Shown here: one piece after another, positions 28,368 through 35,503 of the stretch
Numbering within the stretch: the first letter of the stretch is position 1
Layout of the letters: every line of letters begins with the position of its first letter
NCBI GenBank assembly: GCA_025057895.1
Contig: JANXEF010000002.1
Coordinates: forward strand, 62,001 to 126,000
DNA length: 64,000 bases
Source of the DNA: Archaeoglobaceae archaeon
GTDB lineage: Archaea > Halobacteriota > Archaeoglobi > Archaeoglobales > Archaeoglobaceae
Reading direction: 5' to 3'
Program-made: the position numbers and the translations under genes
Notes under the pieces: model-generated
What the model was told of the DNA's origin: nothing
Seen by the model: the letters and a program-made list of their open reading frames with translations, nothing else
The model's database searches: none

Positions 28368-28877
28368 ATGGGAAGTAGGATTGAGTTTAAGAAAAATGAG
28401 AAAGGATTTACAGGTCTGGAAGCGGCGATAGTGCTGATAGCGTTTGTAGTGGTTGCAGCTGTTTTCAGCTACGTAATGCTTGGCGCGGGTTTCTATACGA
28501 CACAGAAGTCGAAGCAAGTGGTGGACACTGGAGTAAAGCAAGCTTCGAGCTCACTCACACTTGATGGGCAGTATATATATTTGAACTGCACAAATTCTGC
28601 AGGAGGGACAACGGGTTCTAATGGTAAAGTAGGTCAGATCTACTTCTACGTTACACAAACCGCAGGTGGCAGTCCAGTGGATTTGAACAAGACTTCAATA
28701 GCTATCACATCCGCAACTGGCTATAAACAGGTTTTCTACAATGAAACCAATTCTACAGATTGGTGGTGGTATGAGTCGATAGTCGGAGATGGAGACAACG
28801 TTGTGGAGATGAACGAGAAGTATAAGAGCACGATCAACGTGACAGCAACTGGCTGGAAAAGCGACATAGGAGAATAG
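28368..28877 (+). CDS. flaB1: Archaellin FlaB1, interrupted by an in-frame TAG
   Basis: Archaellin is the filament subunit of the archaellum. The N-terminus has a class III signal (FKKNEKG, cleaved after Gly13) and the hydrophobic assembly helix FTGLEAAIVLIAFVVVAAVF. N-glycosylation sequons occur as NCT, NKT, NET, NST and NVT. Translation from the ATG (after GAGGTGGTGAT) stops at TAG after 169 residues. Reading on in the same frame gives 33 more codons that match the FlaB2 C-terminus, ending at TGA 28977-28979. The restored length would be 203, against 202 for FlaB2. So the gene is either freshly inactivated or truncated, read through, or affected by a base-call error. Confidence 0.9.
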   Translation: MGSRIEFKKNEKGFTGLEAAIVLIAFVVVAAVFSYVMLGAGFYTTQKSKQVVDTGVKQASSSLTLDGQYIYLNCTNSAGGTTGSNGKVGQIYFYVTQTAGGSPVDLNKTSIAITSATGYKQVFYNETNSTDWWWYESIVGDGDNVVEMNEKYKSTINVTATGWKSDIGE

Positions 28878-28979
28878 CCAAACGATATCGTTACAATTGA
28901 AGTCAGACCTCCAATTGGAGCACCGTTGTCGATAAACAAGCAATTGCCACCGAGCTTTGTTAATTTGACATACGTATGA
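28875..28979 (+). other. In-frame TAG and untranslated archaellin C-terminus of flaB1
   Basis: After the TAG the frame continues with PNDIVTIEVRPPIGAP and then PPSF, and ends at TGA. The paralogue FlaB2 has PNDNFVIEVKPPIGAT and PPSI at the same place. There is no frameshift; one codon separates the product from full length. Confidence 0.85.
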
Positions 28980-28989
28980 GGTGATGCGA

Positions 28990-29598
28990 ATGAAGTTCTT
29001 CAGAAATGAGAAAGGTTTTACAGGTCTTGAGGCTGCGATCGTGCTAATAGCATTCGTAACAGTCGCTGCAGTCTTCAGCTATATCTTACTCGGAGCGGGC
29101 TTTTTTGCAACTCAGAAGAGCCAAGAAGTTGTTCATACGGGAGTTAAGCAGGCTACGAGTAGCATGGAGCTCGTTGGCTCTGTAGTTTCAACTGGAAATA
29201 CTACGGGCAACAAGATCAGCAATGTCACTTTCACACTGCAATTAGCAGCTGGAGGACAGCCGATCGATCTGAACAAGACTTTGGTCACTGTGCTCGTTCC
29301 TGCGGATGGTGACTATAAAGAGCTATCGTACTATACTGGAAGTAGTCCTCCAAATACAGGAGATAGAGCAAAGAAATACTACGTGCGCTGGGTCTACTCT
29401 CTCCAGGGTTCATCACCGGATAACTACCTTGAGGAATTCGAAAAGGCGGAGGTGACGATCTACTTAGAGGAGGCGGGATTTAATGTGAATCCAAACGACA
29501 ACTTCGTAATCGAAGTAAAGCCACCAATTGGTGCAACTTATCCAATTGAGCTCAAAGCTCCGCCAAGTATAGACAGAGTGATGGTGCTGTTGCGTTAA
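28990..29598 (+). CDS. flaB2: Archaellin FlaB2
   Basis: The 202-residue major-type archaellin has signal FFRNEKG (cleaved after Gly9) followed by FTGLEAAIVLIAF. The outer beta domain carries sequons NTT, NVT and NKT and ends with the conserved IEVKPPIGA stretch. The ATG at 28990 follows GAGGTGAT at good distance; GTG and ATG codons just upstream are less likely. It is 50-60% similar by eye to FlaB1 at both ends and lies 10 nt after that gene's final TGA. If FlaB1 is truncated, this would be the functional filament protein. Confidence 0.95.
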   Translation: MKFFRNEKGFTGLEAAIVLIAFVTVAAVFSYILLGAGFFATQKSQEVVHTGVKQATSSMELVGSVVSTGNTTGNKISNVTFTLQLAAGGQPIDLNKTLVTVLVPADGDYKELSYYTGSSPPNTGDRAKKYYVRWVYSLQGSSPDNYLEEFEKAEVTIYLEEAGFNVNPNDNFVIEVKPPIGATYPIELKAPPSIDRVMVLLR

Positions 29599-29633: not shown

Positions 29634-30377
29634 ATGGCGGACGTTGATCAAACAGTTGTAGATCAGATTCTCGCAAAGGCTACAGAGGATACAGAGGAGG
29701 GAAGACTTGAAAAGCTAGAAAGAGAAGTAGAGACGCTCAAGGGTTCGATTAAAAGACTACTCTTGGACATCCGCGAAACAATGAACAAGCTTGAAAATCC
29801 TTTTGTGAATTTGCAAAGCCTTGCTGAAGCTAACATAGTCCCACAAAGTGCACCACAGATACAAATTGTGCCTACAAACATTCCAGAGTGCAAAACTGAA
29901 AAAGAGGAGAAAAAAGAGGAAAAACTACAGAACTTAGCTGAGGAGACTGAGAAAATAGAGGATCGTAGATCCGAAGTAGAAAAATTTGAAAAGAAAGGAG
30001 AAGAAAGAATGAAAGCTATGTTTGAGGCACCAGTAAAACCTCTAATTGAGAAGAGAGAGGCAAAAATTGAGAACTTGGGAGTTTTTGATGAAAAAAAGGA
30101 ATTGGAATTCATGACTCTCTTCAATCTGATGGAGTGGGTTCATAGCATCGTCTCAAGGCACAGCTACGAAACATTCAAGCTACTGCTCGAAGTTTTCGAA
30201 ATGACAGGATATATTAATAGTAGAATCAAGGAACTGATGATAAAGCTCGCAGATCTCGTTAAGGTAAATGGATCAAAAGAAGTGCTGATAGAGCTTTATA
30301 GATTAAACAGAGTTTTAAATCCAAACGATCATTCTCTCGACTCTGATCTGCTTGCCTTTTTGTTGGAGAAGAGGTAG
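29634..30377 (+). CDS. flaD: Archaellum accessory protein FlaD/FlaE-type
   Basis: The 247-residue protein has an N-terminal coiled coil (about 25-60), a charged middle region rich in Glu and Lys, and a C-terminal FlaC/D/E domain (about 150-247; LEFMTLFNLMEWVHSIVSRH). In Euryarchaeota such proteins form the cytoplasmic switch/collar complex that links the motor to chemotaxis. Only one FlaC/D/E protein is present in this operon. A GGTGATC site precedes the ATG. Confidence 0.88.
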   Translation: MADVDQTVVDQILAKATEDTEEGRLEKLEREVETLKGSIKRLLLDIRETMNKLENPFVNLQSLAEANIVPQSAPQIQIVPTNIPECKTEKEEKKEEKLQNLAEETEKIEDRRSEVEKFEKKGEERMKAMFEAPVKPLIEKREAKIENLGVFDEKKELEFMTLFNLMEWVHSIVSRHSYETFKLLLEVFEMTGYINSRIKELMIKLADLVKVNGSKEVLIELYRLNRVLNPNDHSLDSDLLAFLLEKR

Positions 30378-30393: not shown

Positions 30394-30852
30394 ATGGCAA
30401 AGGAGGTGGTAACAACATCGATTCTCATGATAGCAGCTGTTGTAGCTGTTACTGTAGCAATCACTGTTATGATGCCAGCCATTCGAGATTTGGCCCATTC
30501 TTATACCTCTGTTTCTGGAAAACTGAGTGATAGAATTCAGACAGACGCCGAGATAATCTTCATAAGAACTTTTTCAGAAAGTAAAGGTGTTGAATTCTGG
30601 ATAAAAAACCTCGGTAAATCGTTAAACGTAGATCTAATCAGTAGGGGCGACATCTTTCTTTACTCAGAAAAATCCTACTGGCATATAACAAACTTCTCTT
30701 TCTCCATAGAGAACGGAGATGGAGATGACTATTGGGAATATGGAGAGACTGTAAAAGTATCTTTTGAGGTCGAAGAAACTCTTAGTGGACAATACACACT
30801 CACTTATGTCTTTTATAATGGTGTAAAGATCAGTGATATATTCTCGAGGTGA
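30394..30852 (+). CDS. flaG: Archaellum stator protein, FlaG-type
   Basis: The 152-residue protein has one N-terminal membrane helix (TSILMIAAVVAVTVAITVMM, residues about 8-27) and an outer beta-rich domain. In other archaea FlaG and FlaF form a pair anchored to the S-layer and act as stators. Assignment as FlaG, not FlaF, rests on the N-terminal sequence and on the gene order G-F that I recall for Archaeoglobus; it could be the reverse. It ends just before flaF. Confidence 0.75.
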   Translation: MAKEVVTTSILMIAAVVAVTVAITVMMPAIRDLAHSYTSVSGKLSDRIQTDAEIIFIRTFSESKGVEFWIKNLGKSLNVDLISRGDIFLYSEKSYWHITNFSFSIENGDGDDYWEYGETVKVSFEVEETLSGQYTLTYVFYNGVKISDIFSR

Positions 30853-30856
30853 AGAA

Positions 30857-31318
30857 ATGGGCTTCGATTCTGTTGCCGTTGCAATCATGCTCTCTGCAGT
30901 AGTTCTTGCAATAGGTTATTTACTAATCGTTGGAAACAGTATTCTTGCTGAACAGGCGATGGAGAGCTATAAAGAAATAACGCACTCAGCAGTGAAGAGA
31001 TTGCAGTCAAATGTGGAGATAATCTCAGCAAGTTATGGAAATGGAAAAATAGTTATCTTCTTCAAGAACGTTGGAGCGACGAAGTTCAAGAACTTCGAAA
31101 GTTTTGACATCATTGTCTATGGAAATTCTTTTGTTTCTGATTATCTCAGGGGAAATTTTGTTATAGTCAAGGAACTCACGAATCCTGAAATCTTTGATCC
31201 TCAAGAAACTGCGATGGTTGAGATAGATTTTCAACTACCAAGAGGTAATTACACGCTTTTGATTTGCACAACAAATGCTGTTTGTGATAGTTTTGAGTTT
31301 TATGTTGAGGGTGGTTGA
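30857..31318 (+). CDS. flaF: Archaellum stator protein, FlaF-type
   Basis: The 153-residue protein has an N-terminal helix (MGFDSVAVAIMLSAVVLAIG) and a beta-sandwich outer domain. The MGF start is typical of FlaF. It would bind S-layer protein and FlaG outside the cytoplasmic membrane. The ATG at 30857 follows GAGGTGA; a longer reading from an upstream GTG overlaps flaG and is unlikely. The stop is next to the flaH start. Confidence 0.78.
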   Translation: MGFDSVAVAIMLSAVVLAIGYLLIVGNSILAEQAMESYKEITHSAVKRLQSNVEIISASYGNGKIVIFFKNVGATKFKNFESFDIIVYGNSFVSDYLRGNFVIVKELTNPEIFDPQETAMVEIDFQLPRGNYTLLICTTNAVCDSFEFYVEGG

Positions 31319-31319
31319 A

Positions 31320-32054
31320 ATGGTAAAGAGTATTTCGGAACTTGAAGAGGAAAGGAAAAAGAATATTCTTTCAAGTGGAAATGATGAGATAGACAAAAGG
31401 CTTGGAGAAGGTATTCCACTTGGCTCTTTAACTCTAATCGAAGGAGAGAATGATACTGGTAAAAGCGTTCTATGTCAGCAATTCACATATGGTGGTTTAG
31501 TCCAAGGACACAGGATAGCTTATTATACTACTGAGAACACGATTAAGAGTTTGTTGAGTCAACTGGAGTCTTTAAGTCTAGATGTTTCCGATTTTTATGC
31601 TTGGGGATATCTTAGAATCTTTCCTGTACATCTTGAAGGTGTGGAATGGGGGCCCGAGCAGATGAAAAGCATTCTAAACCTTGTTGCAAACCACATAAAG
31701 ACTACAAAAGAGAATGTCATCATCATCGACTCTTTGACCATGTTCACTGCATACAGCACTGAGGATGATGTTCTTGAGTTTCTTACAAGGCTCAAGAATT
31801 TCTGTGACAATGGAAAAACGATTCTAATCACTCTCCACCAACATGCTTTTAAAGAAGACACACTTGTTCGAATTCGAAGTGCTTGTGATTGTCATTTGTT
31901 TCTGAGAAAAGAACAAGTTGGAGATCGATACGTGAGCGTTTTAGAGGTTTCAAAGATCAGAGGAGCGAAAAAGACTACTGGGAACATAGTTAGCTTCGAA
32001 GTTCATCCTGGGTTTGGGCTCAAGATAATACCCATATCGGAGGCTAGGGCTTAG
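31320..32054 (+). CDS. flaH: Archaellum motor regulator FlaH (RecA/KaiC-like)
   Basis: FlaH is a KaiC-type ATP-binding protein that docks to FlaI in the motor. The 244-residue product has Walker A EGENDTGKSVLC and an incomplete Walker B NVIIIDSLTMF, as usual for FlaH, which binds ATP but hydrolyses poorly. The ATG follows GGTGGTTGA, 1 nt after flaF ends; an upstream reading overlapping flaF is rejected. Confidence 0.94.
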   Translation: MVKSISELEEERKKNILSSGNDEIDKRLGEGIPLGSLTLIEGENDTGKSVLCQQFTYGGLVQGHRIAYYTTENTIKSLLSQLESLSLDVSDFYAWGYLRIFPVHLEGVEWGPEQMKSILNLVANHIKTTKENVIIIDSLTMFTAYSTEDDVLEFLTRLKNFCDNGKTILITLHQHAFKEDTLVRIRSACDCHLFLRKEQVGDRYVSVLEVSKIRGAKKTTGNIVSFEVHPGFGLKIIPISEARA

Positions 32055-32085: not shown

Positions 32086-33915
32086 ATGAAGATGAGCAAA
32101 GTAGATAAAATGAAACCCAAGGGAATAAATCAAGTTGTTGCTAACTTTCCATTCACACCTAAGGATAGCGAAGAGCATGAACACACAAATCTCATCAATT
32201 GTGGTATCTATAGACTTCTACCAGAAGAAATGAAAAAAGAGGTCGAAAAAAATCTCCATTTGCTCGAGTATATTCACATTCTTCCAATAGACAGGATCGG
32301 TATTCCAAAGCTCGTTCAAAAGCTTGATAGAAAGAAGCATGGCGAGCTTGAAAATCCAAATTTGATTTATCCAGCCGATGAGCAGATTTATATTCACATA
32401 TATCCGGATAAGAACGATGTTCGAAACTTCTACATACCTATAGAGCCAATCCTACTTACTGGAGTAGATGATTTACTCAGAGAGGTCGAAATTAGGCTTG
32501 TGGATCACATCACAGGGATAGATTTTGATCCTACTGATGCTGAAGAGAAGAAGAAGATTCTGAAAGAAGCTTTACAAAAGATCTGTGAAATAAGGGATAG
32601 TTTTGTAGAAAATGTAAGAGCAGAAGCTAAACTTATTCCGAAATTAAAACTAAACTTCAAAGGAAATAGCATTGGAAAGTTGAAAGTTACAGAGCAGCAA
32701 TACAAAGCCCTTGAATATGCGCTGATTAGAGACAAAGTTGGTTTAGGAGTTCTTGAGCCATATATAAGAGATAAATATATCGAAGACGTTTCTTGCAGCG
32801 GTCTTGGACCGATATTCATAGAGCACAAAATTTTCAAAGGTCTTAAGAGTGTAATAGAGTTTAAAGATGAAGATGCTCTTAACAAATTCGTTCTTCGCCT
32901 TGCAGAAAGAGTTGGGAAGCCTGTTACTTACAAAGATCCGATAGTCGATGCAACACTACCAGATGGGAGCAGAATTAACATAGTTTATGGAAAGGACATA
33001 AGTAAGAACGGTAGCAATTTCACGATTAGAAAGTTCAACGAAGTTCCATTCAGTGTACTTCAGCTGGTCGAATTTGGAAGTTTGGATTACATGATAGCTG
33101 GATATCTATGGCTTCTGATCAGTGAAGGTATGAGCGGTTTTATCTGTGGTGAGACTGCAAGCGGTAAAACTACGCTTCTAAATGCGATTACAGCTTTTAT
33201 CCGCCCAGAGGCGAAGATAGTTTCAATTGAAGACACACCAGAGCTTCAAGTTCCACACAAAAATTGGACGAGGGAGGTTACTAGAGGGACTACGAGGGGA
33301 GGTAAGATAGGTGAGGGTACTGGGAGTGATGTGACCATGTTTGATTTGCTAAAAGCAGCGTTGAGACAAAGGCCAAATTATATCCTAGTTGGAGAAATAA
33401 GAGGAGTTGAAGGAAACATAGCCTTTCAAGCTATGCAGACTGGGCATCCAGTCATGTCCACTTTTCACGCAGCCACAGTTGAAAAACTGATTCAAAGACT
33501 CACAACAGAACCAATAAGTGTTCCAAAAACTTTCATAGACAACCTGAACTTTGTTGTTATCCAGAGTGCAGTCCGTCGCCCTGATGGGAAATTGGTGAGG
33601 AGAGTTTTGAGTGTTTCGGAGATAGTTGGCTACAACCCACAGAAAGGTGGAGTAAGCTTCATAGAGGTCTTTCAGTGGGATCCTGTAAGTGATAGGCACA
33701 TCTTCACAGGTTTTGGAAGTTCTTACGTTTTAGAACTGAAAATAGCTACGAGACTTGGTATTCCACCTAGTAAGAAAAAGCTCATCTATGAGGAAGTTGA
33801 AAAGAGAGCTAAAATCCTCAAAAAATTGCATGAACAGGGAATTGTTGACTTTTATGAGTTCTTTAGAGCTATTTCAAAGATAACAAAAAGCGGTATGCTC
33901 TCGATAAAGGTTTAA
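32086..33915 (+). CDS. flaI: Archaellum assembly and rotation ATPase FlaI
   Basis: This 609-residue type II/IV secretion ATPase powers assembly and rotation of the archaellum. Walker A is GETASGKTTLLN, the Asp box is SIEDTPELQVP, Walker B is YILVGEIRG and the His box is MSTFHAATVEKLIQRL. The N-terminal 200 residues are the FlaI-specific domain. Two nearby starts exist (MKM and MSK). It lies 31 nt after flaH and 1 nt before flaJ. Confidence 0.96.
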   Translation: MKMSKVDKMKPKGINQVVANFPFTPKDSEEHEHTNLINCGIYRLLPEEMKKEVEKNLHLLEYIHILPIDRIGIPKLVQKLDRKKHGELENPNLIYPADEQIYIHIYPDKNDVRNFYIPIEPILLTGVDDLLREVEIRLVDHITGIDFDPTDAEEKKKILKEALQKICEIRDSFVENVRAEAKLIPKLKLNFKGNSIGKLKVTEQQYKALEYALIRDKVGLGVLEPYIRDKYIEDVSCSGLGPIFIEHKIFKGLKSVIEFKDEDALNKFVLRLAERVGKPVTYKDPIVDATLPDGSRINIVYGKDISKNGSNFTIRKFNEVPFSVLQLVEFGSLDYMIAGYLWLLISEGMSGFICGETASGKTTLLNAITAFIRPEAKIVSIEDTPELQVPHKNWTREVTRGTTRGGKIGEGTGSDVTMFDLLKAALRQRPNYILVGEIRGVEGNIAFQAMQTGHPVMSTFHAATVEKLIQRLTTEPISVPKTFIDNLNFVVIQSAVRRPDGKLVRRVLSVSEIVGYNPQKGGVSFIEVFQWDPVSDRHIFTGFGSSYVLELKIATRLGIPPSKKKLIYEEVEKRAKILKKLHEQGIVDFYEFFRAISKITKSGMLSIKV

Positions 33916-33916
33916 T

Positions 33917-35503
33917 ATGTTTGAGACATCAAAGTTACCAGTTTTCAAATTAAAACTACCCTTCTCCGATAGGTTGAAGAGATTGAAAGAGGATTTTCTT
34001 TCTGATAATGATCTTCTTTTCCTTCTGACTTACATGGCTTCTCTTTCGACAGCACATTTGAGTAGGGATAAAATATTCGCGATGGCTTCGGAAACAAAGT
34101 ATTCTCCAGGCAAGTATTTCGCAATGGTAAGGGATCTAACCCAGAAATGGCACTATGATTACGCAACAGCCTGTGAACTTGTTGCAGAAAGGATAAAAGC
34201 TGAAAGAGTAAAAAAGCTATTCAATAGATTAGCTAACGCAATCTCGGCTGGAGAACCAGATAGAGAGTTTCTAGAACGGGAATGGAAAGCTTTTAAGACT
34301 ATAAGGAAAGATGAATACGATAGAAGCCTTGAAAGTCTGAGAAAGTGGAGCGATGCTTATACTTCACTTTTGGTTTCGGCCTCTCTAATATCTGTTGTTA
34401 TTTTACTCTCCGCTGTCATATATAGTGTTAGTAATCCAGCTTCAACGCTCATATTCTCAGCATTCGGAAATTTTTTAATTTGCCTTTTTGGTGTTTTCAT
34501 GCTCTTCAAAGCTGTACCAAAAGATAGAAAGATTCATGATTTCAGGATAAAATCAAAGGAGCAAGATTTCGCTCTTAAACTTTTCCCTCTGATCCTTCTT
34601 GGAATAATCTTGTTCATAATCTTTGGTCTAATTCCTGTGCTATTTGGCAATTACGAATTTGGCGGATATGGTTTTTTAGCCATAGGACTTTCCGTATTAC
34701 CAATAGGGTTCTTAGCTAAGAGAGATGATAAAAAGGTAAGCAAAAGAGATGAAGCTTTCACGAGCTTCATAAGAAGTCTTGGAGCAATAAAGGGTGGGGC
34801 AGGTGTTTCAATTGCTGAAGCGATAAGGAGAATAGATCAGAAAAACCTTGGAGAGCTTAGGGATCTTGCATTAGAGCTACAAAAAAGACTATCCCTTGGG
34901 CTCGAAGCTAGGATTTGTTGGGAGAAATTCATTGGAGAAAGTGGTAGCTACCTTGTCGAGAAGTTAACTCCAATCTTCATAGACTCTATAGAACTTGGAG
35001 GGGATGCAAATGCTGTTGGAGAAATAGTTAGTTCATCGAATCTAGAAATGGTCCTTCTAAGGCTGAAGAGAGATCTAATAGCTTCAGGTTTTGTAAATCT
35101 CATCATACCCTTGCACATTGCGATGGTTTCACTAATGCTCTTCATAGATCAGATACTCACAATCTTTACGGAATACTTGTCACTTCTATTTGCATCTCAG
35201 GTTGGTAGCGGAGACGTTTTCAGAAATATCCCATTACAAGGAGTAAATCTTGGAATTTTCTCTGGAATCCCAACAGAACTTCTCGCGCAATATACATTTT
35301 TCATAGTTCTTTCGATAACCGTTGCAAATGTTCTGGCTTCCAATGTAGTCAAAGGAGGTGGAAGGATTCTTTACATGTACTACGCATCGATTCTGTTCAC
35401 TTTGTCTGGTATTTTGATGCTTTTAATACCTCCCATAGTCAAATTGGCTTTTTCTTTACCTAGTTTTGTTGAAGTAATTGTGGGGGTGGTTGAAAATGTT
35501 TGA
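33917..35503 (+). CDS. flaJ: Archaellum membrane platform protein FlaJ
   Basis: This 528-residue polytopic membrane protein of the GspF/TadC superfamily anchors FlaI. Two cytoplasmic T2SF domains (about 30-135 and 275-385) alternate with clusters of membrane helices, e.g. LLVSASLISVVILLSAVIYS and FPLILLGIILFIIFGLIPVL, with further helices at the C-terminus. The 3' end overlaps the next gene by 8 nt, which ties that gene to the operon. Confidence 0.94.
   Translation: MFETSKLPVFKLKLPFSDRLKRLKEDFLSDNDLLFLLTYMASLSTAHLSRDKIFAMASETKYSPGKYFAMVRDLTQKWHYDYATACELVAERIKAERVKKLFNRLANAISAGEPDREFLEREWKAFKTIRKDEYDRSLESLRKWSDAYTSLLVSASLISVVILLSAVIYSVSNPASTLIFSAFGNFLICLFGVFMLFKAVPKDRKIHDFRIKSKEQDFALKLFPLILLGIILFIIFGLIPVLFGNYEFGGYGFLAIGLSVLPIGFLAKRDDKKVSKRDEAFTSFIRSLGAIKGGAGVSIAEAIRRIDQKNLGELRDLALELQKRLSLGLEARICWEKFIGESGSYLVEKLTPIFIDSIELGGDANAVGEIVSSSNLEMVLLRLKRDLIASGFVNLIIPLHIAMVSLMLFIDQILTIFTEYLSLLFASQVGSGDVFRNIPLQGVNLGIFSGIPTELLAQYTFFIVLSITVANVLASNVVKGGGRILYMYYASILFTLSGILMLLIPPIVKLAFSLPSFVEVIVGVVENV

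Follow-up and report, generated by a model that had tools for sequence, protein, structure and literature searches.

Does the single TAG codon inside flaB1, the first archaellin gene of an otherwise intact archaellum operon, mark a gene that has just been inactivated, a codon that is read through or decoded as an amino acid, or an erroneous base? The gene lies in a 64,000-nucleotide stretch (the window) of contig JANXEF010000002.1 from an Archaeoglobaceae archaeon. The original prediction offered four options (recent inactivation, read-through giving short and long proteins, amber decoding and base error) without ranking them; in our analysis, recent inactivation is the best supported and base error stands, whereas read-through and amber decoding found no support. 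We put the probability that flaB1 is an ordinary, partly redundant archaellin gene hit by a very recent single nonsense mutation at roughly 0.6. This reading is based on the single lesion, the intact orthologs, the constraint on the sequence behind the stop, the intact operon and the failure of the searches described below to find recoding machinery.

The reading frame of flaB1 and the age of its stop

The frame (28368-28979, forward strand) opens with ATG at 28368 and ends with TGA at 28977-28979, and consists of three parts:

28368..28874, forward strand: flaB1 before the stop, 169 sense codons for the signal peptide, the N-terminal helix and the bulk of the beta-domain
28875..28877, forward strand: in-frame TAG of flaB1, aligned in relatives mostly with Lys (AAA/AAG) or Asn codons
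28878..28979, forward strand: flaB1 behind the stop, 33 intact codons for the last three predicted beta-strands, then the ancestral TGA

There is no frameshift, and the in-frame TAG is the sole lesion. The 33 codons behind it encode PNDIVTIEVRPPIGAPLSINKQLPPSFVNLTYV, so that the protein with TAG read through would comprise 203 amino acids, compared with 202 for FlaB2. Re-reading of the frame bore out the coordinates, lengths and FlaB2-like tail reported in the original prediction, and the match of the tail is real rather than due to chance, given that 29 of its 33 residues are shared with the intact ortholog from the relative G054. The Pfam profile Arch_flagellin (PF01917; gathering cut-off 29.5 bits) matches the protein before the stop with 122 bits (profile positions 1-137 of 162) and the read-through protein with 139 bits (positions 1-160 of 162). 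Judging from this match, the N-terminal helix and beta-domain fold of a structural model and the archaellum operon context, flaB1 is an archaellin gene.

Searching 55 Archaeoglobaceae genomes with PF01917, we obtained about 140 matches in 44 of them, and only one of these, flaB1 of this genome, contains an internal stop. Intact FlaB1 orthologs are 84% (G054), 79% (G051), 71% (G050) and, in Archaeoglobus and others, about 70-78% identical. The TAG falls into a loop of variable length, where Ser and Gln also occur besides the prevailing Lys and Asn, and TGA ends all complete Archaeoglobaceae FlaB1 orthologs checked, as it does here after the 33 extra codons. The FlaB1 of the nearest relative, G049, is 95% identical over 108 residues but uninformative on the TAG because its contig ends at residue 114, upstream of the site. 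The sister-genome comparison proposed in the original prediction thus yielded neither a shared stop, the premature TAG being absent from every ortholog in the family set that covers the site, nor decay behind the stop in the present gene. An origin of the TAG by two indels from GAA-ATA-AAG was considered and dropped in favor of the simpler route, one substitution in a codon for Lys or Gln.

The substitution pattern bears on the age of the stop. Between flaB1 and its G054 ortholog, the nonsynonymous and synonymous substitution rates (dN and dS) amount to 0.086 and 0.854 for the codons behind the stop (dN/dS about 0.10), and to 0.135 and 1.597 for those before it (dN/dS about 0.08). Only 6 of the 19 differences behind the stop are nonsynonymous (P about 1e-4 under neutrality), which indicates that the tail has been under selection for nearly the whole time since the split from the G054 lineage. 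This leaves three possibilities: a recent stop, a tail that continues to be translated, or an erroneous base. The further decay expected of an old pseudogene is not seen in flaB1, which has no second lesion, and hence, if the gene is a pseudogene, only a young lesion fits.

A recent nonsense mutation is also supported by the TAG and TAA lesions, frameshifts and multi-lesion pseudogenes detected elsewhere in the genome, by the genomes of the genus without an archaellin match (4 of 10) and by the precedent of Halorubrum lacusprofundi, where a natural strain has lost one of two archaellins and still forms working filaments (PMC7349177). Two points weigh against it. The tail is undecayed, so sequence alone cannot separate a young mutation from a base error; and flaB1 orthologs are conserved across genera, so that loss of the gene should carry a cost.

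Base error and recoding as alternatives

The main rival of a recent nonsense mutation is an error in the consensus or assembly, or a minority allele in a metagenome-assembled consensus, the flaB1 of the organism itself being intact. We consider this alternative less likely, although a lone lesion followed by fully constrained sequence is compatible with it, and the genome is a draft (1.01 Mb in 40 contigs, 79% complete, with 19 short contigs totalling about 17 kb outside the readable 997 kb). The break of the G049 assembly inside flaB1 further suggests that assembly of the archaellin tandem may be difficult. No long homopolymer run is present at the TAG site, which speaks against an error.

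A scan for in-frame stops with homology on both sides, limited to likely genes and run against about 1.36 Mb of relatives (about 1.1 of the 1.6 Mb of G050 being compared), yielded evidence that cuts both ways. Isolated single-stop genes and frameshifts, as an error-prone draft might contain, include a premature TAA at C4:22807 (reverse strand), 34 codons before the gene end, another at C11:159189 (forward strand), 27 codons before the gene end, each being the only premature stop in a gene with an open G050 homolog, and frameshifts at C2:22.8-24.4 kb, C11:78.0 kb (reverse strand) and C35:75.6 kb (reverse strand). However, multi-lesion pseudogenes show that genuine gene decay occurs in this genome too: remnants of this kind were found at C35:74543 (amidohydrolase-like) and C40:886 (reverse strand), and a Beta_propel (PF09826) gene remnant with many stops and frameshifts, its pieces lying in several frames, occupies about 36.9-38.5 kb of the window, 8 kb downstream of flaB1. 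Many other in-frame stops followed by coding sequence were rejected as lesions, the sequence behind them belonging to neighboring genes with their own starts. Given that nonsense and frameshift lesions, TAA and TAG alike, occur in the assembly, flaB1 requires no special decoding.

Programmed read-through of the TAG, yielding short and long forms of FlaB1, would fit the intact frame, the constrained C-terminus and the intactness of the rest of the operon. Nevertheless, we regard it as highly improbable. No ortholog covering the site has the TAG; the sequence behind it contains no stable RNA structure beyond that of shuffled sequences (z-score -0.30) and no Rfam match; the modelled fold would lose core strands in the short form; and the archaeal read-through events that have been reviewed are those involving selenocysteine and pyrrolysine (PMC8211752).

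Decoding of the amber codon by pyrrolysine or a suppressor tRNA fares worst. The presence of PylRS in some Archaeoglobus groups has been considered possible (PMC5424206). Using profiles each of which passes its cut-off in exactly 1 of 14 control genomes, we found nothing above the cut-off for the PylS N-terminal domain (TIGR03912) or PylD (TIGR03911) in the 55 family genomes, including the present, 79% complete one, or for the PylS C-terminal domain (TIGR02367) in the 10 genomes of the genus; for the genomes searched, the lack of pylS and pylD weakens the earlier suggestion. A CUA anticodon was detected neither among the 36 tRNAs identified by ARAGORN in the readable 997 kb, where unusual forms of tRNA-Pyl could escape, nor in 1.1 Mb of G050. 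The search for PylS or an amber suppressor tRNA called for in the original prediction thus came back empty, and the prediction was right to call TAG an ordinary stop codon in this genome: TAG terminates 159 of the 946 genes scored by codon usage, the remainder using TGA (453) or TAA (334). The homology-supported internal stops include TAA besides TAG, which likewise disagrees with amber decoding.

What could be cited for it is that one more gene is interrupted by a lone in-frame TAG, that the genome is incomplete and that no aRF1 gene was found in it. The gene in question (C11:8842-9600, reverse strand) has its TAG at C11:9342 with open frames on both sides and encodes a PKD-like domain followed by GHGSLNG ... 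FVNTCSAEQ, a sequence reminiscent of a Cys-protease motif; for the portion downstream of the TAG, none of the other 54 genomes of the family contains a homolog. The release factor aRF1 was not found in the sequenced 79% of the genome, the only match being a Pelota-like one at C1:25951-26457, but each of the nine sister genomes has an intact copy. There is a comparably slim chance that an amber tRNA encoded in the fifth of the genome that the draft lacks partly decodes some TAGs, including those in flaB1 and at C11:9342, giving short and long FlaB1. For read-through and amber decoding alike, the open frame itself is the only positive support. The flaB1 stop leaves the known genetic code of Archaeoglobi unchanged.

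Predicted effect on the protein and the archaellum operon

Under a recent nonsense mutation, one base change (e.g., AAG to TAG) would have occurred in the loop preceding the last strands of the beta-domain, and translation would stop at residue 169. When the read-through protein was modelled with AlphaFold2, Lys standing in for the TAG (mean predicted local distance difference test score 77, with only 11 sequences in the input), residue 170 fell within a loop of low confidence, and the strands 174-180, 187-192 and 200-202 were all C-terminal to it. A Foldseek search with this model returned archaellins as all of the best 17 matches, and the model resembles the solved archaellins of L. aerophila, H. 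salinarum, A. pernix, M. villosus, M. hungatei and others. A FlaB1 ending at residue 169 is probably non-functional because its beta-domain would be missing the final three predicted strands, and we infer that it would be kept out of the filament.

If the stop is real, this gene is an archaellin paralog caught just after inactivation, in a genus with archaellin-less species, and the filaments, if made, are predicted to be built on FlaB2 only. In a natural strain of Halorubrum lacusprofundi that has only flaB2, the archaella are functional, though less motile, whereas Methanococcus no longer makes archaella when either flaB1 or flaB2 is lost (PMC7349177). Given these opposite outcomes, the effect of FlaB1 loss in the present organism is not to be assumed.

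The operon has the gene order B1 B2 D F G H I J, with flaB1 in the usual archaellin position. FlaB2, D, F, G, H, I and J are intact and show 43-94% identity to their same-genus counterparts:

28990..29598, forward strand: flaB2, the second archaellin, intact (protein part 28990-29595)
29634..30377, forward strand: flaD/E, intact
30394..30852, forward strand: flaF, intact, with a PF01917 match
30857..31318, forward strand: flaG, intact, identified from its position and its homology to operons of the same genus, without a Pfam match
31320..32054, forward strand: flaH, intact, 88-94% identical to same-genus FlaH
32086..33915, forward strand: flaI ATPase, intact
33917..35503, forward strand: flaJ, intact

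The archaellin complement varies among the relatives. In genus g1, the four archaellin-less genomes are G046, G047, G048 and G053, two of which are 99% complete, and by their gene content archaella look absent from, or lost in, some species of this genus. Other same-genus genomes encode up to four archaellins in tandem (G050:C13:100629-103324, G051:C22:129955-132559), including one with an expanded length of about 300-310 residues. Locus L012 (G014:C1:772709-774106), a single open frame of 498 codons with two archaellin domains, is possibly a fused tandem archaellin. Elsewhere, searches for phage and viral contigs gave no match, and locus L085 (G000:C8:200-1050) contains repeated translated motifs (KSDQNGIE, VEIRPKWD), shared with G050, which suggest a CRISPR-like (clustered regularly interspaced short palindromic repeats) array.

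Comparison with known archaellins and pyrrolysine proteins

Pyrrolysine proteins, in which UAG is read through, share with flaB1 the in-frame TAG and the intact sequence behind it. Unlike in these proteins, the TAG of flaB1 is located in a variable loop rather than at a conserved active-site position, an archaellin is not a methylamine methyltransferase, and no Pyl genes were found here in the searches described above. The single-archaellin strain of H. lacusprofundi (PMC7349177) is similar in that it represents a two-archaellin system in which flaB2 alone sustains functional archaella; however, flaB1 is missing from that strain, whereas here it is present with a nonsense codon, and the two organisms belong to different archaeal classes. 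The closest counterpart is the Archaeoglobus-type FlaB1 (PF01917), to which the protein described here corresponds in its identity to the G054, G051 and G050 orthologs, in its place in the operon and, according to the model, in its fold, and from which it differs by the in-frame TAG that, among the family members searched, is present only here.
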